A stretch of 64,000 bases of DNA from an uncultured Verrucomicrobiales bacterium. Lineage in GTDB: Bacteria > Verrucomicrobiota > Verrucomicrobiia > Verrucomicrobiales > DEV007. Positions 41,114 through 58,758 of this stretch are shown here, piece after piece. Within the stretch, counting starts at the first letter, position 1. Every line of letters begins with the position of its first letter. The position numbers were made by a program, and so were the translations under genes. The stretch covers positions 1 to 64,000 of the forward strand of contig CALAIY010000028.1 in assembly GCA_937922595.1 (NCBI GenBank), given 5' to 3'. Below the pieces are notes generated by a model. The model saw only the letters and a list, made by a program, of their open reading frames with translations. It was not told where the DNA came from and did no database searches.

Positions 41114-42136
41114 TCAGTGGCTTTTCAAATGCTCGGCGAGAACATCGCGGCCAAAATCGCCTTCAAAATCGCGCCAAACGGCATGGGCGTGGTTCGCGCC
41201 GCCCTGAGTATTGGCATATTCCATGAGAAAAGTTGGCCCCTGAATCCTAAAATAACAAGGCTCGCCGGGAGCTGTGGCTCCCCCCCAACCAAAGTGTATT
41301 TTATCGAAGCCTGCAGCGTCGATGGCGGCAAGTTCCACACCTGCGACCTCATGGCGGTAGCGATGAGTGAAATGAGTGACGAGCTTGCGTAGCGCAATCT
41401 TGTGCTGATTCGGGAGTTTTGCGGCAGCAATCCCCACTTCCTTGAGCGGCTTTATGGCACGATCAGCGCCGGTGAGAATTTCGCGCGGCGGCTTATCAGA
41501 AAAGACAACGCCAGGAAAACCTTCGGCCACGAGAGCAATAACTAACGCACGGGCAGCATCTTCATCCACCCCAAGGACGCGTAGATCTTTATAATTACCA
41601 CCACGGACTTCGGCGGGATTCGCCCCAAAGAACGACGGTGTGAGGCTGACGATCAGCCCTCCCGAGATTGTAATATTGATGGATAGATGATGCCCTTCGA
41701 TCCGCCAGCCCCAGGGAGCTTGCCCTCCAGGCTTGCCAAAGATACTGAAGGCGTATTTTTTAGGATCCCGCAGGGCTGGATCCCCTCCCCTATCACGGAG
41801 AATTTGCTCAAGAAGCATAATATTTTCCGCCTGCTCAAATCCTTTGCTACTCATCGTGGCGCGAAGTAGGGCGCGAGCGTTTTCCCGCTGAACGGAAGTC
41901 ATCCCTGAAAGGTAGAGACCATCACGCTTTTTGGGAATATAATGCCAGTCTTCGCGGGAATCAGTATCCTCCCACTCGAAGGTGGCGGATTCGCTCTGCT
42001 CAGGGGTGAGTGACGCCAGAAACGCATTGGCGGCGCTCGCTACATCCTTAGAAACCGCACTGGTAACAGGAGGGACTGCCGTCACCATATCGGCAGTAAT
42101 AAGAAAAGCGCACGCAGTGAGAACAAGGGATTTCAT
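41114..42136 (-). CDS. DUF3500 secreted protein
   Basis: 340 residues with a signal peptide (TACAFLITADMVTAV). DUF3500 hallmarks in order: AFLASLTPEQSESATFEWEDTDSREDWHYIPKKRDGLYLSGM, YAFSIFGKPGGQAPWGWRIEGHHLSINITI, SFFGANPAEV, and LATRFTH-type THFTHRYRH. A final FRIQGPTFLMEYANTQGGANHAHAVWRDF matches the end of the family. The function is unknown. Confidence 0.87.
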   Translation of the reverse strand: MKSLVLTACAFLITADMVTAVPPVTSAVSKDVASAANAFLASLTPEQSESATFEWEDTDSREDWHYIPKKRDGLYLSGMTSVQRENARALLRATMSSKGFEQAENIMLLEQILRDRGGDPALRDPKKYAFSIFGKPGGQAPWGWRIEGHHLSINITISGGLIVSLTPSFFGANPAEVRGGNYKDLRVLGVDEDAARALVIALVAEGFPGVVFSDKPPREILTGADRAIKPLKEVGIAAAKLPNQHKIALRKLVTHFTHRYRHEVAGVELAAIDAAGFDKIHFGWGGATAPGEPCYFRIQGPTFLMEYANTQGGANHAHAVWRDFEGDFGRDVLAEHLKSH

Positions 42137-42281: not shown

Positions 42282-45200
42282 ATGTCCGACACTCCTCCGC
42301 CAAATCCTCCTCAAGAACACCCGCTACTCGCCACTTTTCGGACGCTTTTTCCGGAGCTTGGCGCGCGGTCCGTCGTCTCGGCGACCACCGAATGCGCCAG
42401 CGCCTGGTGTATCCCAGCTTCAGCAGAAGGCGAGCCCGTATCGGCTAGACTTGTGTATGTGCTCGCGCCGTTTGCGTCGGATGCGCTGAGGGATCGCTTC
42501 GTGGCAGTGGTCGAGCGGCTTCACAAGATCGAAACGCCAGGCATCGTGCCCTTGATTGATGCGGGCGAGCGCGGCGGCTATCCATATCTCACGTATGCTT
42601 GTCCTGCGGGCACGACACTCCGCCAACTTTTCGATCCAAAGACAAAGAAGATAGAAGGCCAGAAGGCACTGGCGATCGGCAAAGGCCTGGTTCGCTCCGT
42701 GGCATTTCTTCACGCGGCAGGAATCCACCACGGCTCGATCCACCCGGACAATATCATTATCGATTCGAAGGGGGATCCCTGGCTCATTTCCTCAGCCTTG
42801 GAAATGCTCTTTGAGCACCCGCCCGAAATTCGGACGCGCCGCTACGCAGGAGTCCCCGCCTCTCAGCGAGCTCACCTCGCTCCAGAGCAAACTGATCCGT
42901 CCGTAACTTCACCTAGTTACAAAAGCGACATTTACGCGCTCGGCTCGGTTATCTACACCATGCTCACCGGCGGGCAGGTCGGCGGTTTCTTTAAGCTCCC
43001 ATCGAAAGAAGCTGATCTCGCCCACGAGATCGATGATATCGTCACCTCCTGTCTTCAGCCGAAGCCCGAGGATCGCAATTTCGACGCCCCTTCGCTCTAT
43101 GCAGCTCTCGACAATGTAAGAACCGGCTACTTCCTTCGCGATGTCGAGAAGAAGAAGCTTGAGGACAAGGCGGCGAGTAAATCCGCCCCCGCCAGTTCGG
43201 TCTACAGCACGCACGACCTTGAGGGACGCACGCTCTGGCAAAAGCACCGGATGAAAATCATTGCCCCAGCGGCAGCGGCTCTCGTCGCGCTTGGCTGGTG
43301 GAGCTATGAGAATTACATGCGGCCACCGACGCCCATCGCCCCCATCCTCGCCGAAGCACAAGGGCACATCTCCCTCGCCGAACTCGTGGAGGCGATGCAG
43401 AAAATCAACGAAGCCTTCGAGGCTGCGGGAGTTGATCCCCAGAAATTGAAAACTATCGTGATGTTTCTCGTGCAAAACGGAATGCCTGAAGATGCCGGTG
43501 ATTTGCTAAAGCGACATCTGGGGAAAATGGATCCCGACGACGAGGACGTGCTCGCCGCTCTCGCCTTTCAAAAGGCATTCGAGGTAGATCTCGCCGCCTA
43601 CAAAGATGCCAGCCTCCAGGCAAGTGCCGCTCTCGATGCTGGTGATGACAAAGCAGAACGCCTCGCATTAAACGCCGCTCAATCGGCACTTCCTGGCGAG
43701 CCAGATGTGGAACGACGCCTTGCGGTAAATCCAATCGAGATCGAATTCCGCCTTGAAAGGGCGCTCTCAGCCGTCCAAAAACAACTCCCTTCCGGAGTAA
43801 AACTCCTCCACAATTCCTCAATCGTACGCAGTGCCGCCTACCTCGATCTATCGAGTAATCCATCGCTCACTTCGCTTGAGCCGCTCCGGGGAGTCCGCAT
43901 CAATGAACTCGATATCAGCGGTACCTCAGTCTCCGACCTCGCCCCTCTGGAGAACATGCTCCTCCGTCGGCTGTGGCTGGACGACACGAAAGTCACCAGC
44001 CTTGAGCCTATCTCAAGATCACTCCTCGAATCACTAGCATTCGAAAACACCCCCGTCGCAGATCTCGCTCCAGCTGCCAATCTCCAGCACCTTCAATACC
44101 TCCGCCACACAGCACCTGAAGATGGTTCTCGCGTGGCACAAATTACCCCGCCTGCGGATAATAATTTCTGGGAAAACGCGGTAGGAATGCGATTCCAGCG
44201 TTTAGCTGAATATCCCGACATCTTCTTTGCCACGACAGAACTCAAGGTTGGTGAATTTGCCCAATTCATCGCGGAATCTGGACATCAAGTCGCACCGGCT
44301 CAGGCGGTTTCTGCCGAAGGCGAAGAAGAATCTACAGTCTCTTGGGACGATTCCCTCCTTGCTCCCGGCACCCGCTATTCCGTGGCTGGGCTCTCCGCCG
44401 ATGACGCGAGCGCATTCTGCAGTTGGCTCACTGCGCGCGACCGCGCAGCCGGCAATATCCCGCCGACGGCGCTCTACCGGATGCCGACCGACGCCGAATG
44501 GGGCTCTGCCGCCAGTCTTTCCGAGCACCCATTCCAGCAGCCATCCGCCCGCACCCTAGAAGGCCGCCCTGCACTTTTCGAGAAAGACCCTCCTCTACGA
44601 ATCCCCGCATCTCATGCCGCCGGAATCGGGAGGTATTCCGGCCTCATCGCAGGCGTCCGCGAGTGGTCCGGCTCCCCCTACGAAGACGGCTTCCCTGCCC
44701 TCTCCGTCCGTGGCGGCTCGTCCGATGTGAGCCTCACAGCTCCCCCGCTTGCACCCGAGCCCATCGCCGAGCCCAATCCAAATCCAGCGACAGGCTCCTC
44801 CACCGAAGCGGCAATGCCCACGGTCCCCTCCACCGGATTCCTCGCCCCACGCGTTCCGATCCCTGAGGCAACGCCTGAAGGAAAAATCGATCTTCGTGAT
44901 CGCATTGCCCTCGCTCCCGATGTGCGGCGGAGCGATATTGGCGTCCGCGTCGTCCTCTCCCTCTCACCAAATCGCGGCCTCGATCCCATCGTCCAGACGC
45001 TCGAATCCGGCGAAGATATTAGCGAGGCTGTAGAGCGCGCCCGTGCCCTCATCAATCTCTCCCAAACGGCCTCCCTCGAAGCCGACATCAACCCTCGTAC
45101 CCTCGACTCCGCAAAATCACTCGTCGTCTACGCCGACCTTCGCGAAGCCTACAAAAAAGACCGCCGCGCCCCAAGCACACTGCGCCGCGTGTTTGAATAC

Positions 45201-45665
45201 TACAAAGGCCGCCGCTACCTCCACCTCAAAGTCCCCGTCTCATTCGACACCGCAGATCGCCTTGCCCGCGCCGTCGGCGGCCACCTCGTCACCCTCACCG
45301 ACGACGGCGAACTCGATTGGGTCTCCGAAATCGTCCTCCCTCGAGGCACCCTACCTCCGACCTCGATCTGGCTTGGAGCCACCATCGACACCTCAGTCTC
45401 GCCGATCTATTCCTGGGGTGGCGGCATCAGCACCAATCTCCCAGATTTTGTGCCCTTCACCCCCGATCACCGGCTACTACTTGCCCCCTTCCCTGCCCCC
45501 ACGCCGAAGGCTCCCTCTTCAGCAGACCCGGATGGCACTGGAGAAACTCCCCTCCCCGCCCCGGACGCCTTTGAGCGTTTCTCAGCAGGAAATCCGCCAG
45601 TCTATCTCGACTGGCACGAACGCCCTCGCACCGAGCGCCACGGTTTCCTCATCGAATGGGGCTAA
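42282..45665 (+). CDS. Membrane receptor-like protein: pseudokinase, LRR-like, SUMF1-like and lectin-like domains
   Basis: 1127 residues. Residues 12-285 have a Ser/Thr-kinase fold, but the HRDLKxxN loop is HGSIHPDN (150-157), the DFG is LIS (168-170) and no VAIK Lys is seen; APE (200-202) and SDIYALG (215-221) remain. One membrane helix at about 325-341. A helical region follows, then leucine-rich-repeat-like units (about 520-610: LDLSSNPSLTSLEPLRG, LDISGTSVSDLAPLENM). Next an FGE-sulfatase/SUMF1-like domain (about 630-925: ELKVGEFAQFIAESG, LYRMPTDAEWG, ending RSDIGVRVVL). Last, a C-type-lectin-like domain (about 990-1127: YKGRRYLHLKVPVSFDTADRLARAVGGHLVTLTDDGELDWV, ending HGFLIEWG). The pseudokinase faces the cytoplasm. 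A potassium-channel gene follows after 3 bases. Confidence 0.85.
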   Translation: MSDTPPPNPPQEHPLLATFRTLFPELGARSVVSATTECASAWCIPASAEGEPVSARLVYVLAPFASDALRDRFVAVVERLHKIETPGIVPLIDAGERGGYPYLTYACPAGTTLRQLFDPKTKKIEGQKALAIGKGLVRSVAFLHAAGIHHGSIHPDNIIIDSKGDPWLISSALEMLFEHPPEIRTRRYAGVPASQRAHLAPEQTDPSVTSPSYKSDIYALGSVIYTMLTGGQVGGFFKLPSKEADLAHEIDDIVTSCLQPKPEDRNFDAPSLYAALDNVRTGYFLRDVEKKKLEDKAASKSAPASSVYSTHDLEGRTLWQKHRMKIIAPAAAALVALGWWSYENYMRPPTPIAPILAEAQGHISLAELVEAMQKINEAFEAAGVDPQKLKTIVMFLVQNGMPEDAGDLLKRHLGKMDPDDEDVLAALAFQKAFEVDLAAYKDASLQASAALDAGDDKAERLALNAAQSALPGEPDVERRLAVNPIEIEFRLERALSAVQKQLPSGVKLLHNSSIVRSAAYLDLSSNPSLTSLEPLRGVRINELDISGTSVSDLAPLENMLLRRLWLDDTKVTSLEPISRSLLESLAFENTPVADLAPAANLQHLQYLRHTAPEDGSRVAQITPPADNNFWENAVGMRFQRLAEYPDIFFATTELKVGEFAQFIAESGHQVAPAQAVSAEGEEESTVSWDDSLLAPGTRYSVAGLSADDASAFCSWLTARDRAAGNIPPTALYRMPTDAEWGSAASLSEHPFQQPSARTLEGRPALFEKDPPLRIPASHAAGIGRYSGLIAGVREWSGSPYEDGFPALSVRGGSSDVSLTAPPLAPEPIAEPNPNPATGSSTEAAMPTVPSTGFLAPRVPIPEATPEGKIDLRDRIALAPDVRRSDIGVRVVLSLSPNRGLDPIVQTLESGEDISEAVERARALINLSQTASLEADINPRTLDSAKSLVVYADLREAYKKDRRAPSTLRRVFEYYKGRRYLHLKVPVSFDTADRLARAVGGHLVTLTDDGELDWVSEIVLPRGTLPPTSIWLGATIDTSVSPIYSWGGGISTNLPDFVPFTPDHRLLLAPFPAPTPKAPSSADPDGTGETPLPAPDAFERFSAGNPPVYLDWHERPRTERHGFLIEWG

Positions 45666-45668
45666 GCC

Positions 45669-46523
45669 ATGTCTGAGCACCCACCACAGTCTCTTCGCCT
45701 CAAGGTGCACGACATCATCTTCGGCCACCGCACCCGCCCCGGTAAAACCTTCGATGTCATCCTCCTCATCTTGATCCTTGGCAGCGTCGCCACCATCTCT
45801 CTCGAAAGTGTCGCCTCGATTCGCGCGAACTATGCCAATGCACTCCGCACCGCAGAATGGCTCTTCACAATCATCTTCACCATCGAATACCTCGTGCGCC
45901 TCTGGGCAAGCACAGCCCCCCTGCGTTACGCCCGTTCATTTTACGGAATTATTGATCTAGTCTCGATCCTTCCCGCCTACCTCACCTTGCTCATCCCCTA
46001 CGGCCCACAATATCTCGCAGCGGTTCGAGTGCTTCGCTTCGTTCGGATGTTCCGCGTCCTCAAAATGGCGCGCCACGTCACCGAAGCCAATATCATTGTG
46101 CGCGCCATCGTCGCATCCCGCGCGAAAATCACCGTCTTCCTCATCGCCCTCATGAGTGCCGTTTTCGTCCTCGGCACCCTCATGTATCTCATCGAAGGAG
46201 AAGAAAGCGGTTTCACCAGCATTCCGAAATCCGTCTACTGGGCGATCGTCACCATCACCACCGTCGGCTACGGCGACCTCTCCCCCATCACCCCGCTAGG
46301 CCAGCTCATTTCCGCCATCACCATGGTTGCCGCCTACGGCCTCATTGCCGTCCCCACCGGGATCGTCGGAGCTGAAATCTACCGCGAAGCTCAGCGCGGT
46401 AATCATGCCATCCACAATCTCAATCTCACAACAGACAGCCGAATCTGCCCAGATTGTAATACTCGCGAGCACCGCACTGGAGCCAATTTTTGCTTCTCTT
46501 GCGGCTCCAAACTGGACGTCTAG
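45669..46523 (+). CDS. Voltage-gated potassium channel with C-terminal zinc ribbon
   Basis: 284 residues. Helices S1-S6, with an Arg-rich S4 (VRVLRFVRMFRVLKMAR, about 119-135) and a selectivity filter TTVGYGDLSP (197-206). After S6 there is a short linker and a treble-clef-like ribbon CPDCNTREHRTGANFCFSCGSKL (about 260-283), rare in bacterial Kv channels. It starts three bases after the receptor stop, so it may be in one operon. Confidence 0.9.
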   Translation: MSEHPPQSLRLKVHDIIFGHRTRPGKTFDVILLILILGSVATISLESVASIRANYANALRTAEWLFTIIFTIEYLVRLWASTAPLRYARSFYGIIDLVSILPAYLTLLIPYGPQYLAAVRVLRFVRMFRVLKMARHVTEANIIVRAIVASRAKITVFLIALMSAVFVLGTLMYLIEGEESGFTSIPKSVYWAIVTITTVGYGDLSPITPLGQLISAITMVAAYGLIAVPTGIVGAEIYREAQRGNHAIHNLNLTTDSRICPDCNTREHRTGANFCFSCGSKLDV

Positions 46524-47764: not shown

Positions 47765-49102
47765 ATGACCGCCAAACAAATTCTCGCCTCCGATACCGCC
47801 CACCCCGAAATCACCATCGGTGGATGGGTACGCACCCGGCGCGATTCCAAACAATTCTCATTCCTTGAAATCAACGATGGCTCCTGCTTGGCCAACGTCC
47901 AAGTAATCGCCGACTCCGGAATCCCAGGCTACGACGCTGTCCCACAGCTCACCACCGGAGCCTCAGTCGAGATCACCGGCAAGTTAGTAGAATCACCTGG
48001 GAAAAACCAAAAATGGGAGCTCCACGCAGCATCCCTAAAGCTCCTAGGCACCGCCGACGACTCCTACCCCCTGCAGAAAAAAGGGCACGGCGCTGAATTC
48101 CTTCGCACCATCCCCCACCTGCGTTCGCGAACGAATCTCTTTGGCGCTGTTTTCCGCGTGCGGAGCAAAATCAGCTTCGCTGTGCACCAATTCTTCCAAG
48201 AACGCGGCTTCCACCACGTTCACACCCCCATCATCACCACCTCTGATTGCGAAGGCGCGGGTGAGATGTTTCGCATCACCGCTGGCGAAGAAGAATTTTT
48301 CGGTGCCCCCGCCTACCTTACCGTCTCCGGCCAGCTCGAAGGGGAAACTCTCGCCTGCGGTCTCGGCAGCATCTACACCTTTGGCCCCACCTTCCGCGCC
48401 GAAAATTCGCACACCACCCGCCACGCCTCCGAATTTTGGATGGTCGAGCCCGAAGTCGCCTTCGCCGACCTTGAGGCAGACATGACTCTCGCCGAAGACA
48501 ACGTCCACTACCTTATCGATTACGCCCTCGAGCATTGCGCCGAAGACCTCGCCTTTTTTAATAAATTCCTCGATAAGTCACTCATCGAGCGCCTCACCAA
48601 GTTATCCAAAACGCCATTCCAGCGAGTCACTTACACCGAAGCTGTCGATATCTTACTCAAGAGCGGCAAGAAATTCGATTACCCCGTAGAATGGGGGACA
48701 AACCTACAATCCGAGCACGAACGCTTCCTCACCGAAGAGCACTTCAAAACGCCCGTCACGGTCTACAACTATCCGAAAAAGATAAAGCCATTCTACATGC
48801 GTCAGAACGACGATTGCTTCGATGGCAGCGATCGCCCCACCGTAGCAGCCATGGACCTACTCGTCCCCGGCATTGGAGAACTCATCGGCGGCTCCCAGCG
48901 TGAAGAGCGCGGGGAAATTCTAGATGAAGCCCTTCGCGCCCACGACCTAGATCCAGAAGCTTACAAAGGCTATACCGACCTTCGCCGCTACGGCACCGTA
49001 CCCCATGCCGGCTACGGACTCGGCTTCGAGCGCATGCTAATGTTCCTCACCGGTGTCTCAAACATCCGCGACGTGCTCCCCTACCCCCGCACCCCGGCGT
49101 GA
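47765..49102 (+). CDS. asnS: Asparaginyl-tRNA synthetase
   Basis: 445 residues. N-terminal OB-fold anticodon-binding domain ([22 protein letters not shown]), then class II core: motif 1 [27 protein letters not shown], motif 2 [24 protein letters not shown], motif 3 [15 protein letters not shown]. The NSHTTRH loop and end (LPYPRTPA) fit AsnRS rather than AspRS. Its last 45 bases overlap the 3' end of the convergent TPR-CHAT gene. Confidence 0.95.
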
Positions 49103-51739
49103 TCGCGCAAAACTAAGCACACCAAGTCCGATCCCAGCAAAGACGAAGCCAAGCCCAAGAATCACCCGCCAGTGAATCTGCTTTTTGGCTGGCGCGACCA
49201 ATTCCAAGGGAACCGATTCTTTCACCGCTCCGCGATGGCTTAGAATATACGAACCGGCAAGGAAGACGGCGCGAGCTAGCTTTTCCTCGTCCATTTCTCC
49301 CTTGGGAAAGTGCCGCCGGAGTTCCTCCCTCTGGAGCGACCAAAGTGCGCCAGGTGGGTTCTGCGATTGTTGCACCGTCTTGTAAAAGCGGTGCATGAAG
49401 TGCGGGCTCGCAGCATCCGATACCGGCCAGAGAGTGAGGAGCACATTGCGGGCTCCGGCACTGGAAAGCGCACGGCGAAGCCCGACAACGCCCTCGCCCG
49501 AAGCCGTCATCCCCAGAGCAGAGCTGCACGAAGAGACCGTGGCGATCCAAGTATCCGTAAGATCGAGATCCGCAGCTTCCTCGGCGAATAGAATATCCGA
49601 TCCACTCAAAACAACGCCGCTTTGATAGTAAGGAGCCGGATCGATATCAAAATCGAATTGGGTATCATCCTCTTCACCTAGATAAAATCCATGAGCAACG
49701 AGATGAAGAACACGAGGGGAAGAAAGCTCTTTTAAAGCAGCTTCCGTCGCCCCTTCCCCAGAGCTTACTTCGGACCACGCAAGATCCCCCACCAATCTTG
49801 CTTCGCGATGCGCCCCTTTGAGATCCGGCATATTCGCAATTTCCGCGGCAAGACGCGGGTTCATATCAACAGGCAAACTTCTACCCGACTCATAATCCGA
49901 AACCGCAAAAATCTGCCACGGCTGATCTGCTCGCGCCGCTGGCTGGGGTAAAAGGTCGCGAGCAGAACCTACCGTAACCACTTGGGAAAAACGCTCACAA
50001 AGAAAATCCCCATTTTCACCTAACAAGGTAGAGAAAGGAAGAAAGTGAAGGCCCGCATCAGGAGCCAGGATGAGGGTTTCTGTGTTTTCGGGCAGGATTT
50101 CTTCAATAGGTTCCCAAAAAGTTTTAGAAAGCCCACGAAGAACACCGTGAAGAGTAAGCGCTCCAGGGCGAGAGCCCCGAACCTTTCGTCCATAAGCAGC
50201 GAGCCAGCGCTCAAGGCGGGCATCGGAGCCAAGAGGCACCCAGATTGGCTCGTGACCTTTTGGCGTTACCATTGCCCCATAGTGGCGAGTCGGTGGATCA
50301 GCCGCGTAATCGGTATAAGCTAGAAAATCGATAAACACGCCTCGCTCGGGAAGAAGCTTTTGGAGAGCCTGCCAATCACTCGGCCCGGGAGGAAGCGCGC
50401 TATCCACCGCAGCTTCGAAAGCGGCGAGATCCTCTAAAAGCACCGGTTTTCCCGCGAGCCGTAGTTGGTCAATTTTAAGCTGAAGGGCGCGGAGTTCTGG
50501 ATTCTGTTTTTTGGTAGGTGTGGCCAGGCCTTTTGTCCGGATGAGAAGATTTGCAAGATCCAAAGTCCGTGAGCCAAGCGTCGCGGGGAGGGAAAGAATA
50601 TCGCTGCCTGACCGGTAATTTAGGCGTTGCCGGTTATTCCCCGCAGCAATTGCGCGGCGCATTACTACTTCACCTGCTTTGGTAGCGCGGAAGGCATAGT
50701 CCGATGCAGAAGATTGATCCCCGCGAAGGTGGGCGTTGAGCCCAAGAGCCCGGAGAATCTGCACCGTAAGGACGTGTTCTTCGGGAATGCCGGAACCCGC
50801 AGCAATGCCAAGTGCAGTCGTGAAAGCCTGATTTGCGGAATCGACCTCACCGATGGATTGAAAAACTTCACCGAGATTATACTCAGCACGCGCGATGGCA
50901 GGGTGCCCCTCTCCGAAGCGCATTCGAAGGAGCCGTGCTGCTTGCGTAAATGCATCGATCGCGGCTTCAGGATCTCCCTCAGCAAGTGCGAGCTGCCCAA
51001 GATTGCTAAAGACTTCTGGGCGATCTTCCTCAGGAAGAGTATCAAGAGCTGCAAGAAACCGCTGACGGGCGGCGGCGAAATCGCCAGAGCGGAAGGCCGC
51101 AAACCCTTCATTCGCAGCGAAACTAGAATCTTCGGAAACTAGCTTACCTGCGGCAACAAACTGCTCGCGCGCGAGGCCATAACTACGAACTGCGAGAAAA
51201 AGGCGACCTAGATAGCCATGTCGCTGAGCGCGCAAGGCAGTTTCATCTTCAGATGTTTCCGATAGAGTTTTGCGAAAGAATGCGCCGGCTTCATCATGCC
51301 TGCCCCACGCTAGATAGAGAAGCCCCAGATGATCCTGGCTCGCCCGCAGCCACTCGGGTGAGTTTTCCCGCAGTCTGATCGCTTGCTTGAGAGTAACCTC
51401 GGCTTCTCCGAAACGGTAGGCGTGCTGATAGGCACGACCAAGAGCGTCTGCGATATCGCCCTGGAGCTGTAAATCCTCTGTAGCGGCCACTTCGAGCACT
51501 GCGATGGCTCCCTCGGAATCCCCCAGAGCATCACGAACCATTCCAAGAGAAAGGAGAACGGGCGCGGAAGGCGTTGTCTCAGCGAGAGATTCTAGAAGCG
51601 GGGCGGCCTCAGCAAATTTCCCCTGAGATAGATACGTCTGAATCTTAGCTGGATCAGCTTGAGAACTTGTAAGCCCTAGGAGCAGCCCTGCTGCAATGGA
51701 GCGCAGCCCCCCACGACACTTCGCGCCCCGAACCTTCAC
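49058..51739 (-). CDS. Exported TPR-CHAT caspase-fold protease
   Basis: 893 residues, GTG start at 51739 overlapping the subtilase stop by four bases (GTGA). A signal or anchor near the N-terminus ([18 protein letters not shown]), tetratricopeptide repeats over about 30-370 ([31 protein letters not shown]), then a linker and a CHAT domain (about 545-850). The catalytic dyad is complete: His683 (HLVAHGFYL) and Cys738 ([10 protein letters not shown]). [26 protein letters not shown] is the family's closing motif. One C-terminal membrane helix (about 860-882) precedes a basic tail, so the protease part should be outside the cytoplasm. Cleavage specificity is unknown. Confidence 0.88.
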
Positions 51740-54700
51740 GAACCGGGAGTGATATGGAGACGCACGAAGCCAGTTTCTGAACCAGCCTGCATTGGAAAAG
51801 TAGCGCGTACCTTCATCTGTATCGGGGAAATTTCGGATTTCACATCATAGCTAAGACCTGCTGGAACTCCCCAGGATTCTAAGTCCGTGGACCACTGAAG
51901 CTGAAACTTACCACCATCTCGAAGGTCTGATGGGGACTCGGGATCGAAAAGGTACTTAGCAGCAAGGAAATCAAATTCGATTGCCGTGTTATCTAATGAA
52001 ATGGCGACGATATTATCCTCAAGATCACGCGTATTGGGGATGAGGCCGGAGAAGTATTCTTGAGCATTGGGAAGACCATCCGCATCGAAATCAGCAGCGG
52101 CAGCGAGGCCACTCCCGGTGTAGCGCGCGCCCCACTCGGCAAAGCCAAAAAATGTGGGGGAGGATTCCCCTGCAATGTGTGCGACCCGATCAGTCGTGCC
52201 CGCAGTGGGATTCGCGAGAGTCGAGGATGATGAAACCGTGAGGAATGTCTCGATAGCCCCAGGATCAGCGTAGGGATTCGCCGCGAGGCATTCTAGAGCA
52301 CAACCAGCAACGAGCGCGGAGGCTCCGCTGGTGCCACTGAGAATCACATTCCCTGCGCCAAGGGTGGGCTGAAGAATATCTTCGCCGGGGGCAAGAAGTT
52401 CGATTCCTGGGCCGCGGTTTGATCCCGCCCATAGCTTGTCGAATTTATTCATCGCACCTACGGTAATCACTCCGGAGGTAGCAGCACCGTTGGATGCAGG
52501 AAGATAATCGGAGGCTTGGCCTCCACCATTTCCTCCCGCGACAATGACGGTAATTCCACGCGCGACAGCATCTTCAATCGCGGAAGAGAGTGCCGCACTC
52601 GTGGCGGGAGTAGATGATGACAGCGCGAGAAGCATCACAGCGGGATTAGGAACGCCAGGCTGAGCAGCCGTGCGAGCCTCATGAATGAGCGTCGCTCGGG
52701 TAACTGCCGAAACAAGGTAACTCACATAAGTCGGATCCCCTGCACCATTGGGAAAAACATCATAAGGGAAGATATCAAGTGCAAGGTTCGGGACGACGCC
52801 AAGACTTGAGCCTCCTACAAGGCTGAGCATCTGAGTGCCATGAAGAAACCGGGTGGATACAAGCGGCTCGCCAAAGGCTCGAATAATCTCGGTGGGAAAA
52901 ATGTTTTTGTTACTCGATAGGCCTGAAATTACGGGAGCCGTGCGATCAATTGCAGTGTCGATGATGTAGAAATCAATCGGAACACATGCGTCGCCCGGAC
53001 AGAAGCTATAAGGACCAGATGGAGAGATCGGCGCTGTCGTATTGAGCCGGGCAAGCGGCCAATCTACGCCGACTTTGTCTGAGGTGTTTCCCAGGGAGTG
53101 ATCGACTTCGACTGCTGAAACGTCGTCATTTTCAGAAAGGCGATTGAATTGCTCATCGGTGAGAAAGGCGGCGATAGCCTCCCGACCATCAGGAAGCTGA
53201 AGGGGAAAGTAGATAAAGCTGTCTCCATCGGCGACGAAAGGTTTGATGCTGCGCCCCATTTCAAAGGCCTCCCTACTCTGCGTAGCAATGTAGCGAGCCT
53301 GCCCGGTGAGCAGACCGGTGCGCGCGAGGAAACCACGAGAGGCAGTGGCGTCATTCGATAGGGCCGTGCTGCCAAAGATTGTAGGAGCCCCGAAAAATGA
53401 GCCTCCCACATACACGGTGTCCGGGCGCTGGCTGACGCGCACGGCATTAGGCTGAGTGCCGCCTCCTTGCTCGCTGAAGCGCGAATAAAGGAGGCGCCCT
53501 TCATCATCAATCTGAAGGAGCGCCGCATCGGCGTTGCTGCCTTGATCGCGAATGATATCGCATTGATAGCGGGAGGAGCCTCGAGCCGAAGCTCCGACCC
53601 AAGTATTGCCTCTCGCGTCCGTATCAATTGCTCCCACACGAATCTCGGAACTGTCGTCGATAGGATTCGCAATGGGAACTGCCCAGATTGGGCTGCCACT
53701 CCGGGAGATTTTCGCAAGGAAGCTGGCATTACCTCCGGCTTGGGGAGCAGGAAGAGCGTCTCCTTGGATTTGAGGGTTTGCGCCATCGGCGTCGAAAGCG
53801 AATCGCACGGTTCCATCAGCGGCCACGGCAACGTCATTCGCGAAATTGAAATCCCCACCACCATCGGACCTTGTAGTGATGATGGATTCGAGCTTGCCAG
53901 TTTCCCGGTCCAACTGTGCAAGGAAAACCGCGTGCTCGCTCAAAGAGGGAAGATTTACATCAGGTGGGGCAAAGGTGCCGAGCTGGCCGCTTCCTGTATC
54001 GCCGCCAAACTCGAATACGAGATCAACCCCGCTCCCTCCGACGTTGGCTACGGGAACCGAGGTATTCAGCGGGTAAGGAGTGCCTTCAATTGTGCTTGGA
54101 AAAGTGATCGCCGATGTTTCGCCGGAGGAGGTAGTAATCGTCGAGAAGAGAAATTCGTAATCGGGACGGGAGCTCCCCGGTGATGCTGCAGACGGATCGA
54201 ATTTGAGGCTAAACCTCAGATTCGTGACCCCATTGGCACGGAGTCGCCAGGTATCACTCTCGCTCACCTGAATTCCGGTAGCGGTCAAAGGTGTCACAAG
54301 AACGCTTTTGCCTTCGGGACCCGCACTAAAGCCTGGTGAGCTAAGGGGCACAAGATTCCCTCCCTCAACCGAACTCGCTACCACTGATCCTCCAGTGAAG
54401 CGTCGAATTCCAATCGAGATATCGATGGGAGTATTGGAAAGAATTCGCAGCTCTCCATCGACAACACCAGCCACGGGAGGAGCCGCATCTATGAGCAGCC
54501 GGGCTGGTGAGCTAGGCTGCGGGTCCCCTCCAGAAATCGCTCCCGTGACGGCGACCTGCCCACCGGCCTGATCCCCCACATCGAGCGCTTTCATAAAAAC
54601 AGCCCCTGGAGCAACTTCAGAATTCCAAACGAGCTGCCCATCCACCTGATAGCGGCGAGCGAGCGACGCCGTGCCATTGTCCCCACCGGTGACGAATACA

Positions 54701-55236
54701 TCGCCGCCCGATCCGGCGGCAATATCCACGACGGGAAAACGAGGAATCTGAAAACCACTAACGAGATCCCCAGATGGGGAGAGCTGGAAGACAAAGCCAT
54801 CGCGCGAATCCGGCACTGCTACCGGGTCAGATCGGAAAAAACTAATCTCCTGACCTCCCTCTGCCTCCATCGATCCACCGAACGAACCTCCCACGATGAG
54901 CCCCCCATTGGGAAGCCGAGCAATTCCAGCGACGTCGATCCTTCCGGTGAAGCCACGCATGAAAAATGGTTTCGCCCAATCTGCCGTGCCGTCATCCTTC
55001 AGGCCGACGACAAATCCATCCGTATCACTTCCGCTTCCCTCACCTTCAAAAATTCCCGTAAACGTCCCCGCCACGGCGACTTCGCCAGCGGTGCCGAAGA
55101 TGCTATCTGCAATGCCTACTACATCAGCACTGCCTGTATCGCCGAGCGAAACCGCACGGTTCCATTCATAGATCTGCGCCTCAGCGCCCGCACCGAGGGC
55201 GAGCCAGAGGAAGGTTTTCAGAAGGAGGTTTCTCAT
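51736..55236 (-). CDS. Secreted subtilisin-like (S8) protease with N-terminal propeller-like region
   Basis: 1166 residues from the ATG at 55236, preferred because MRNLLLKTFLWLALGAGAEA is a signal peptide. Residues 20-730 have repeating beta units with DGFVVGLKDDGTADW, typical of SBBP-like propellers. The S8 domain follows: Asp760 (IIDTAID), His799 (HGTQM), the oxyanion Asn903 (VAGGNGGGQ) and Ser970 (SGTSGASALVAG). A final module (about 1030-1166) has ADFDADGLPNAQEYFSG and STDLESW...FVRLHI, shared with the lamin-tail protein at 56-58.8 kb. The triad is complete. Coupled to the downstream TPR-CHAT gene by GTGA. Confidence 0.9.
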   Translation of the reverse strand: MRNLLLKTFLWLALGAGAEAQIYEWNRAVSLGDTGSADVVGIADSIFGTAGEVAVAGTFTGIFEGEGSGSDTDGFVVGLKDDGTADWAKPFFMRGFTGRIDVAGIARLPNGGLIVGGSFGGSMEAEGGQEISFFRSDPVAVPDSRDGFVFQLSPSGDLVSGFQIPRFPVVDIAAGSGGDVFVTGGDNGTASLARRYQVDGQLVWNSEVAPGAVFMKALDVGDQAGGQVAVTGAISGGDPQPSSPARLLIDAAPPVAGVVDGELRILSNTPIDISIGIRRFTGGSVVASSVEGGNLVPLSSPGFSAGPEGKSVLVTPLTATGIQVSESDTWRLRANGVTNLRFSLKFDPSAASPGSSRPDYEFLFSTITTSSGETSAITFPSTIEGTPYPLNTSVPVANVGGSGVDLVFEFGGDTGSGQLGTFAPPDVNLPSLSEHAVFLAQLDRETGKLESIITTRSDGGGDFNFANDVAVAADGTVRFAFDADGANPQIQGDALPAPQAGGNASFLAKISRSGSPIWAVPIANPIDDSSEIRVGAIDTDARGNTWVGASARGSSRYQCDIIRDQGSNADAALLQIDDEGRLLYSRFSEQGGGTQPNAVRVSQRPDTVYVGGSFFGAPTIFGSTALSNDATASRGFLARTGLLTGQARYIATQSREAFEMGRSIKPFVADGDSFIYFPLQLPDGREAIAAFLTDEQFNRLSENDDVSAVEVDHSLGNTSDKVGVDWPLARLNTTAPISPSGPYSFCPGDACVPIDFYIIDTAIDRTAPVISGLSSNKNIFPTEIIRAFGEPLVSTRFLHGTQMLSLVGGSSLGVVPNLALDIFPYDVFPNGAGDPTYVSYLVSAVTRATLIHEARTAAQPGVPNPAVMLLALSSSTPATSAALSSAIEDAVARGITVIVAGGNGGGQASDYLPASNGAATSGVITVGAMNKFDKLWAGSNRGPGIELLAPGEDILQPTLGAGNVILSGTSGASALVAGCALECLAANPYADPGAIETFLTVSSSSTLANPTAGTTDRVAHIAGESSPTFFGFAEWGARYTGSGLAAAADFDADGLPNAQEYFSGLIPNTRDLEDNIVAISLDNTAIEFDFLAAKYLFDPESPSDLRDGGKFQLQWSTDLESWGVPAGLSYDVKSEISPIQMKVRATFPMQAGSETGFVRLHITPGS

Positions 55237-55405
55237 GGTCAAATCAAAGGAACGTGGAAGCGGAACCCTAACACGCAACTTTCAAAGACCGCAGAAAAAT
55301 GGGGAGTCCCGAATGCTCCTCCAAGCCTTCGAGACTCCCGCTTTCCATAAATACTGCCGACTACCCACCTCCATGGGTAATCGTACAGAGGGTATTTTAG
55401 AGAGC

Positions 55406-56010: not shown

Positions 56011-58758
56011 TTACGGCGTCGTCATTACACTGACTCGGAAGAAGACGACTTCAGAATCTCCCGTGTAGTCTAGAATGAGCGAAGTATCATCGTTCGCAAT
56101 TTCCATAGTTTCCATCGTGCTCCAATTCACGAGGTCTGTAGAAATTTCGACGCTAATCTCGGTGTCCGGATCGCTTCCAGCCTCAGCGGACTTTGGGATA
56201 CTGATCCTATTTCCCACGGGAAGCGGTAGGGAGTCCGCAGTTCCAGGCTCAAAGCCCATGATGGCGAACTCGACGGCGTTTGGAATACCATCTCCATCAT
56301 CGTCATCCGTGGGACTTCCGGTGATGCCTTTGGCTGAGGCAAAGGTTTCATAGGCAGCGGAGCCCATGATATTGCGTCCGCTTCCATTCGCTGCGTTCGG
56401 GGTGGGAATCGCCGCCTGGAAATTCGAGCTATTCTGCCGCTCTCCCCCATCGGGAATTCTTTGGATCGAATTTCTGGAAGAATCTGAAGGCCCAGCATCT
56501 GCGGGAGTCACGCCAAGTAGGTTCGCCAGAGTTTCATCAGAGCCTTTATAGACTACCGCATCGATCACGAATATTGCGGCTGGCGGAGGAGTATTATTCG
56601 GAAAGTCTGTGGCATCTCCCAAAACAAGGGCGACAGCATCCGGACCGCCTTGGATGAGGCTTGAGCCTGCCTTCCCAGGAAGTGCAGCGGCTAAGCCCGG
56701 GACATTCGCGGCTCCTGCCACGAAGAAGCCCGATGCATTGGTCGTGAATCCATCGAGATCCAGGACGCTGTATGAGACATCGCCGTTTCCATTAAAGAGC
56801 ACCAGAGAAGTGCCGGTGAGAGGGGTATTCCCGACACCCCCATCGTAAAGCTCGATAAATTCTAGCTCGCTCGCGCCCGTGGCCGCCGCGTGAATTTCAT
56901 TGATGAATATATTGATGTTTAGCGCATCACCATCGTCCTCGACCACAAGTGTCCCGCTCCCATCGACGAAGCCTGGAGTGAAAGCCCTGAAGCGAACCTC
57001 GATATCGCCATCAAGTAAGGTATCGTTTACCGCATTTACAGTGGTGGTCGCGGTGGTCTCACCTGCCAAAATCGTAAGCTCTTCTACGAGGGCGACCTCG
57101 GAAGAGGGATCTGCTGCGAGCGCAATTGAAAGAGCGGCATCAATATTGCCTCCACGAGAGACGGTGAGGGTAGCGGCTCCAGCATCTTCCGAGATTGAGG
57201 CGACATCGAAGGAAAGAGTGAGCGTTTCGCGAGGGCAAAAAGGAGTGCCTCCATCCACTTCGTAGCCGGGTGAAAACGATTGGTTCCCTTCCCCAATACT
57301 AATATAGGCGACAAATTCTCCAGTAATGTCGGGATTTCTCACGAGAGATCCACCCCCTCTGATCTGAGAAGAATAAGTGGCACCGGATATTTCAAATCCC
57401 ATTACATCGAGAATTCGAATCGAATCACTGGAATCATCAAAACCTAGCCCTTCAGAAACTAATTCATTGCCATTCTGAACGCTCGCTCCACCAAAAATTG
57501 CGGGATTCCCCTCGATGGCTCCTCCACCAAAGACTACGATGGCACATCCTGGATCGAGAATTGTCCCTGAGGGGAAGACATGGCGTAGCGCCTCGGAATC
57601 AAGTAAGGAATACCCCGAGAGGTCGAGTGCTGTTTCCCCTGAGTTTACTAGTTCAACAAATTCTTCAATCCCTCCTGCATCGACGATTCCATTCCTATTC
57701 GCGTCCGCAAATTCAGGAGAATCGGTTTCCCGGTATGCTGCGTGAATCTCATTCACGACTAAGATCGGCTCGGCATCGGAATCGTCTTCTACTGTGATTG
57801 TTTCAGAAGCGGAAGTGGCACTGATGCTTGTGGTCGAAAATTCAAGGGTTACTCGTTGGTCTCCGTCATTCCATCCATCGTCGATAACGCTAAGCACCAC
57901 GGGAATTGAGGTGGCTCCAGATGGTATCGTGATGCTCTCGCTAATGGCTAGCTCCGAGGGGTCGCTAATTTCGATCTCAATGATGAGATCGACATCTGCG
58001 GCACCATCAAGTAAGCGCAAGGTTCCTTCTACGAACTGCGATCCAACGGATTCAGAGACTGACCTTGGGAAATCAATCGCAAGCCTGTTTTCCGGGATAT
58101 TAGATATACCAGGGGATGGTGCTGAGGCTTTGAATTCCCCAAAGGCACTTCCACCATCGCTCTCACGCCCAAGCGAAAACTCTGTCGAGGCATTGGTATC
58201 ACCGGATTCGTTGAAAAGTGAGAGCGTTATTCCATCGGGAGCCAAGGCTTCTCGTAGTTCGAAATCGTCTTGAGGGGGGCTTCCGTTAAATTCATTTTTA
58301 CCGTAGACCACCGCATCGAGAATCGGACTGAGCGTCACTGGATTCACGGCTCCCGGGAGGGTGCCATTCGGAAAATCCTCGGAGGATCCGATATAGAGAG
58401 CGATCGCATCGGTTCCATTTTGCAGTGCTCCGGGAAGCGCTAGATCAGCACCGAGGAGAGCTGAATCAGCAATGAGGAAGAAGCCGTTTTCGTTAGTCGT
58501 CCCGGTGAGGGGGATTCTATTGTAGGATGCGTTGCTGCTCGAATTTCCGTTGAAGAAAACGAGGACTAAGTCTTCAAGCGATTGATTCCCGATGAGATTG
58601 CCGGAGGCATCCACTGATACGATTTCAACAAATTCGGAGGCGTCCTCGGAGTCGGCAGTGTCGGGGTCAAACTCGTTGATAAGAAACGTTTGTGCAGGAA
58701 GGGAGTAGATTAGCCCGAACAACGCGAAGGTGGAGAAAATTCCGAAGGTTGGTGACAT
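56011..58758 (-). CDS. Secreted lamin-tail / Calx-beta exoprotein
   Basis: 915 residues with a signal peptide (STFALFGLIYSLPAQ). Three lamin-tail-like domains begin LINEFDPD (about 27), VVNEIHAAYRE (about 335) and INEIHAAATG (about 625). Two Calx-beta-like regions lie between them (about 230-330 and 510-610). It ends with DDDGDGIPNAVEFAIMGFEP and ISTDLVNWS...FFRVSV, the same module as at the end of the subtilase. Likely cell-surface or extracellular and Ca-binding. No catalytic motif. Confidence 0.85.
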   Translation of the reverse strand: MSPTFGIFSTFALFGLIYSLPAQTFLINEFDPDTADSEDASEFVEIVSVDASGNLIGNQSLEDLVLVFFNGNSSSNASYNRIPLTGTTNENGFFLIADSALLGADLALPGALQNGTDAIALYIGSSEDFPNGTLPGAVNPVTLSPILDAVVYGKNEFNGSPPQDDFELREALAPDGITLSLFNESGDTNASTEFSLGRESDGGSAFGEFKASAPSPGISNIPENRLAIDFPRSVSESVGSQFVEGTLRLLDGAADVDLIIEIEISDPSELAISESITIPSGATSIPVVLSVIDDGWNDGDQRVTLEFSTTSISATSASETITVEDDSDAEPILVVNEIHAAYRETDSPEFADANRNGIVDAGGIEEFVELVNSGETALDLSGYSLLDSEALRHVFPSGTILDPGCAIVVFGGGAIEGNPAIFGGASVQNGNELVSEGLGFDDSSDSIRILDVMGFEISGATYSSQIRGGGSLVRNPDITGEFVAYISIGEGNQSFSPGYEVDGGTPFCPRETLTLSFDVASISEDAGAATLTVSRGGNIDAALSIALAADPSSEVALVEELTILAGETTATTTVNAVNDTLLDGDIEVRFRAFTPGFVDGSGTLVVEDDGDALNINIFINEIHAAATGASELEFIELYDGGVGNTPLTGTSLVLFNGNGDVSYSVLDLDGFTTNASGFFVAGAANVPGLAAALPGKAGSSLIQGGPDAVALVLGDATDFPNNTPPPAAIFVIDAVVYKGSDETLANLLGVTPADAGPSDSSRNSIQRIPDGGERQNSSNFQAAIPTPNAANGSGRNIMGSAAYETFASAKGITGSPTDDDDGDGIPNAVEFAIMGFEPGTADSLPLPVGNRISIPKSAEAGSDPDTEISVEISTDLVNWSTMETMEIANDDTSLILDYTGDSEVVFFRVSVMTTP

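Follow-up and report, generated by a model that had tools for sequence, protein, structure and literature searches.

A probable membrane pseudokinase receptor of a small bacterial family, encoded beside a potassium channel gene

The window, a stretch of 64,000 nucleotides from an uncultured Verrucomicrobiales bacterium, encodes a protein that is probably a single-pass membrane receptor from a small, conserved bacterial pseudokinase family, serving as a non-catalytic, ligand-sensing scaffold that recruits partners. A scaffold of this kind had been raised as a possibility in a first-pass annotation of the sequence. It is the best reading of the residue losses together with the conservation of the kinase part. 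The receptor, its domains and the channel encoded next to it are located in the window as follows.

42282..45665, plus strand: pseudokinase receptor open reading frame, 1127 amino acids (open reading frame, Pfam Pkinase and FGE-sulfatase matches, full-length relatives)
42321..43181, plus strand: pseudokinase domain, about residues 14-300 (alignments, AlphaFold, Foldseek)
43251..43307, plus strand: probable membrane-spanning segment, about residues 324-342 (hydropathy; weak here, strong in relatives)
43329..43803, plus strand: TPR-like helical region, about residues 350-507 (model of residues 350-1127, weak TPR_14 match)
43839..44118, plus strand: short leucine-rich repeats, about residues 520-612 (LRR_4 below cut-off here and above it in the relative L091; model)
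44169..44950, plus strand: SUMF1/FGE-like domain, about residues 630-890 (Pfam; a single Cys, 713)
45189..45662, plus strand: C-type-lectin-like C-terminal domain, about residues 970-1127 (aligned to the Lectin_C region of the relatives L092 and L094)
45669..46523, plus strand: six-TM voltage-gated-type K+ channel (P0002), 284 amino acids (Pfam, TVGYGD filter)

Kinase domain, membrane segment and ectodomain

The two reading frames are present as the first-pass annotation described them, the channel starting three bases after the receptor (TAA GCC ATG). The N-terminal domain of the receptor is a member of the protein kinase fold, matching Pkinase (PF00069; 8e-13) with 48.8 bits against a cut-off of 31.7. 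AlphaFold modelling, suggested along with the annotation, gives a complete and confident two-lobed kinase fold (AlphaFold2, 20 aligned sequences, mean pLDDT 87). The best Foldseek matches of this model are PknB-type kinases (E 2e-15).

The glycine loop, the VAIK (beta3) Lys, the alphaC Glu, the HRD Asp and the DFG Asp are all lost from this fold, and the HRD His, the catalytic-loop Asn, the APE Glu and the F-helix Asp are kept. The motifs read HHGSIHPDN at residue 149, LISSALEML at 168, APEQ at 200 and DIYALG at 216. HGS replaces HRD at residue 150, with Ser for Asp, and SSA replaces DFG at 170. The first Lys of the receptor is residue 82, and because none precedes it the VAIK Lys is impossible under any alignment. 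None of the three residues that define an active Ser/Thr kinase (VAIK Lys, HRD Asp and DFG Asp) is therefore present. The domain instead has what defines a pseudokinase, a kinase fold with at least one of the three motifs lost and conserved in that state. Motifs and alignments alike confirm the annotated absence of the HRD Asp (HGS), DFG (LIS) and VAIK Lys and the retention of APE and DIYALG.

The receptor's own membrane segment is weak (Kyte-Doolittle 1.25 across the 19 residues from 324), whereas the segments aligned with it in seven relatives are strong (1.75-2.63). From these sequence features we infer a single-pass membrane protein. Its N-terminal pseudokinase would be cytoplasmic, and the LRR, SUMF1-like and lectin-like domains would lie outside the inner membrane. 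The earlier view of a kinase joined across the membrane to such domains is supported.

The model of residues 350-1127 is confident mainly in the TPR-like helices and the short LRRs, with the lectin-like end poorly modelled, and a Foldseek search with it returned nothing significant. By sequence, the receptor matches FGE-sulfatase (1.5e-8), and LRR_4 falls just under its cut-off (3.2e-5). The SUMF1-like domain holds one Cys (713) in place of the active-site Cys pair of FGE, and therefore formylglycine chemistry is not expected. The corresponding region of L091 matches, by sequence, SUMF2 and PorK/GldK of the same superfamily in the PDB. The lectin-like end has no direct Pfam match in the receptor itself. 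The receptor C-terminus aligns to that of L092, where Lectin_C passes the cut-off (2.3e-5), and this end is common to the receptor, L092 and L094. Diversification of the lectin or FGE domains by a diversity-generating retroelement was considered and rejected, the receptor's own genome (93% complete) having no RVT_1 match.

Members and conservation of the family

The receptor is present in 7 of 75 genomes of the same bacterial family, which hold five intact full-length relatives with 22-27% identity and one split copy, in G053. A profile search of 289 genomes of the order found two further members in another family (G095 and G120) as well as the G053 copy, with a wide score gap between the receptor family and ordinary kinases. 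The G053 copy is divided between two contigs (L142 and L143), contains in-frame stops and is likely a broken gene or an assembly fault. At E 1e-62, 388 genomes drawn from across the phylum yielded no additional member, and a scan of genome contigs with the receptor found only two planctomycete kinases. Counting the window receptor, nine members were found, spread over two families of a single order.

The VAIK Lys and the DFG Asp are missing in all nine members as against none of 56 other kinases, the Lys position being a gap in the incomplete G053 copy and in rows with an unaligned N-lobe. The HRD Asp is lost in six of the nine and kept in L091, L117 and L118; the HRD position reads HGS, HRC, HGH, HGR, HRA, HCD or HRD across the family. 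Five tested catalytic residues are all kept in 55 of the 56 background kinases, which are the best search matches with near-copies included, and the one exception is without only the Lys at HRD Asp+2. In an alignment that spans the N-lobe, the VAIK Lys occurs in 0/8 family rows versus 12/12 intact rows. The alphaC Glu is likewise found in none of the eight, and the 12 intact rows have Glu or a near-neighbour replacement only. The HRD His, the APE-motif Glu, the F-helix Asp and a late-helix Arg (R265) are invariant in this alignment, whereas the catalytic positions vary freely.

In the domain tree, a branch supported at 83/90 separates the receptor kinase domains from the other kinases; the tree has long branches and one weak fork inside the receptor group. 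Between G120 and G095, the kinase part is 63% identical versus 44% for the rest (dN 0.30 versus 0.56). Between G051 and G052, the values are 50% versus 40% (dN 0.46 versus 0.61). Synonymous sites are at or near saturation, so we claim no dN/dS, while constraint is still supported. The stronger conservation of the kinase part speaks for a maintained pseudokinase family and against decay.

The catalytic loss in nine of nine relatives points to a purposeful non-enzyme scaffold, and the pattern of conservation fits selection for fold and surface rather than for catalysis. The eight other kinase loci analysed in the receptor's own genome keep the Lys, the HRD Asp, the Asn and the DFG Asp. When 10 active kinases were scanned for the same ectodomain, none had an LRR or FGE match, several of their reading frames being incomplete.

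The adjacent potassium channel

The downstream gene encodes a Kv-type channel with a voltage sensor and a TVGYGD-bearing pore, which matches Ion_trans (2.5e-35) and has Kv1/Kv4 as its best solved relatives. Its C-terminal CxxC...CxxC zinc ribbon is kept in 25 of the 25 orthologues read. Channel orthologues (E < 1e-60) occur in 50 of the 75 same-family genomes, and their contexts vary by genus. Since only three bases part the receptor and channel genes, which share a strand, their co-transcription is possible in the window genome. The channel is followed on this strand by an aminotransferase gene (in-frame ATG 46547) and then an asnS-like class II tRNA synthetase gene (47765), which gives the run the look of an ordinary directon. 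Promoter-like sites are no commoner here than in shuffles.

The first-pass annotation went on to suggest that the receptor controls the channel. The two would then form one module, the pseudokinase serving as a scaffold that gates the channel or holds it in position. The short gap on one strand is consistent with this, and so is the presence of the channel in all seven same-family receptor genomes, one of them with the split, interrupted receptor (hypergeometric P=0.05 without phylogenetic correction). However, 43 of the 68 same-family genomes without the receptor carry the channel as well. In all six remaining receptor genomes of the family, which belong to other genera than the window genome, channel and receptor are on separate contigs. 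Flanking genes are on the contig for five of these six receptors and the channel is among none of them; L094 has only 530 bases upstream. No channel orthologue was found in G095 and G120, which are outside the family and 86% and 68% complete, and no receptor stands beside the roughly 30 other channel loci inspected. A search for the pair in other genomes had been advised, and in terms of gene adjacency it found no co-occurrence in the six same-family and two same-order genomes, which leaves the suggested control unsupported.

The closest analogy to channel control is the pairing of MRH1, an Arabidopsis receptor-like pseudokinase, with the K+ channel AKT2 (PMC5353636). There a physical interaction of the plant proteins was shown but no functional regulation of the channel was reported, whereas here the pairing is one unconserved gene adjacency. 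We regard a joint module as highly improbable, and the channel is probably an incidental neighbour outside any conserved module.

Signalling role, alternatives and related systems

The remaining alternatives concern what the degenerate domain itself does. Decay into a functionless kinase gene would agree with the presence of the receptor in so few same-family genomes and with the broken state of the G053 copy. It is largely refuted by the 1127 open codons, by the loss of the same residues across genera and two families, and by the kinase part being the more conserved part, and we give it almost no credence. The degenerate kinase may instead have another enzyme activity, like SelO (AMPylation) and SidJ (polyglutamylation), which are precedents among the bacterial pseudokinases (PMC12599244), and the receptor does retain the catalytic-loop Asn and, close to it, Asp 156. 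However, the positions of the VAIK Lys, HRD Asp, Lys+2, Asn+5 and DFG Asp all vary in the family and no substitute set of conserved polar residues is seen, so this activity is very unlikely. Some pseudokinase families without the beta3 Lys (DYD and DLHK) are modelled to bind ATP (PMC12599244), and ATP or another ligand in the pocket could set the conformation of a non-catalytic switch. Such a switch is unlikely here with the glycine loop, beta3 Lys, alphaC Glu and DFG Asp lost together.

In the preferred reading of a ligand-sensing, non-catalytic scaffold, the LRR, SUMF1-like and lectin-like domains would bind an external ligand, perhaps a sugar or a protein. The binding would alter the oligomeric state or conformation of the receptor. 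The pseudokinase would then relay the signal by docking a partner such as a catalytically intact Ser/Thr kinase of its own genome. Alternatively, trans-phosphorylation may come first and an adaptor then be recruited as the partner, on the model of FhaA recruitment by M. tuberculosis MviN. The analogy with MviN and EssB (PMC12599244) is what suggests docking either to intact kinases or to a phospho-adaptor. More tentatively, these proteins might be a new receptor family with LRR/pseudo-SUMF1/lectin-like sensing, in which the pseudokinase allosterically controls the active PknB-type kinases of the cell without catalysis.

Bacterial pseudokinases are largely unexplored by experiment (PMC12599244). 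That review of them makes no mention of SUMF1, lectin, leucine-rich or Verrucomicrobia. A literature search for pseudokinase and Verrucomicrobia, which covered open-licence papers and so leaves novelty unproven, gave no title or abstract that describes the receptor family. The family is compact with a clear boundary, its kinase fold is confidently predicted and its ectodomain type is missing from the review. A compact, bounded family with a confident fold makes a receptor-type non-catalytic signalling role directly testable.

EssB/YukC and MviN are bacterial membrane pseudokinases that act as scaffolds, in the case of MviN as proposed (PMC12599244). MviN (ActPs3, Mycobacterium tuberculosis) resembles the receptor in being a membrane protein with a PknB-like pseudokinase that has lost all three motifs. 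However, its pseudokinase is C-terminal to the membrane domain (residues 710-942), whereas that of the receptor is N-terminal and followed by the LRR-SUMF1-lectin domains. The ActPs3 family is also actinobacterial, a different bacterial group, and has activation-loop deletions. A deletion of this kind is not evident for the receptor in its alignments, a comparison made with the description of ActPs3. EssB/YukC of type VII secretion similarly crosses the membrane once and uses a cytoplasmic pseudokinase as scaffold, but LRR, SUMF1 and lectin domains are not described for it.

The DLHK and GLW families have also lost the beta3 Lys and DFG (PMC12599244). DLHK keeps the HRD Asp, as do some members of the receptor family, and in GLW a TM follows the kinase, as in the receptor layout. 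However, DLHK is without TM regions, and both are described mainly from proteobacteria. The receptor stands outside the DLHK class, with HGS at HRD and a TM in its relatives. Its family stands outside the GLW class, where GLW replaces HRD, a variant absent from the family. The PknB-type receptor Ser/Thr kinases are alike in having the closest solved folds and the same order of N-terminal kinase, TM and ectodomain, but the receptor is without their catalytic residues and its ectodomain is not PASTA.

Gene neighbourhood points to no partner or conserved operon, and the neighbours of the receptor relatives differ. A MoxR-vWA-beta-propeller (bpX4) system was rejected as a partner, being on other contigs or absent elsewhere and absent from the receptor's own genome. 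The bpX4 protein of this ternary system (L091 9837-10484, in G064) adjoins the receptor relative there and was seen beside no other relative, and a CotH/LTD protein adjoins the relative in L095. In the window, the divergent upstream gene (41114-42136, minus strand) encodes a DUF3500 protein, and a large protein with a lamin-tail domain is encoded at 56011-58758 (minus strand). Between them, a TPR-CHAT caspase-like gene (49058-51739, minus strand) and a subtilase (Peptidase_S8) gene (51736-55278, minus strand) overlap by four bases at the end of the latter, and the two are possibly a protease pair.
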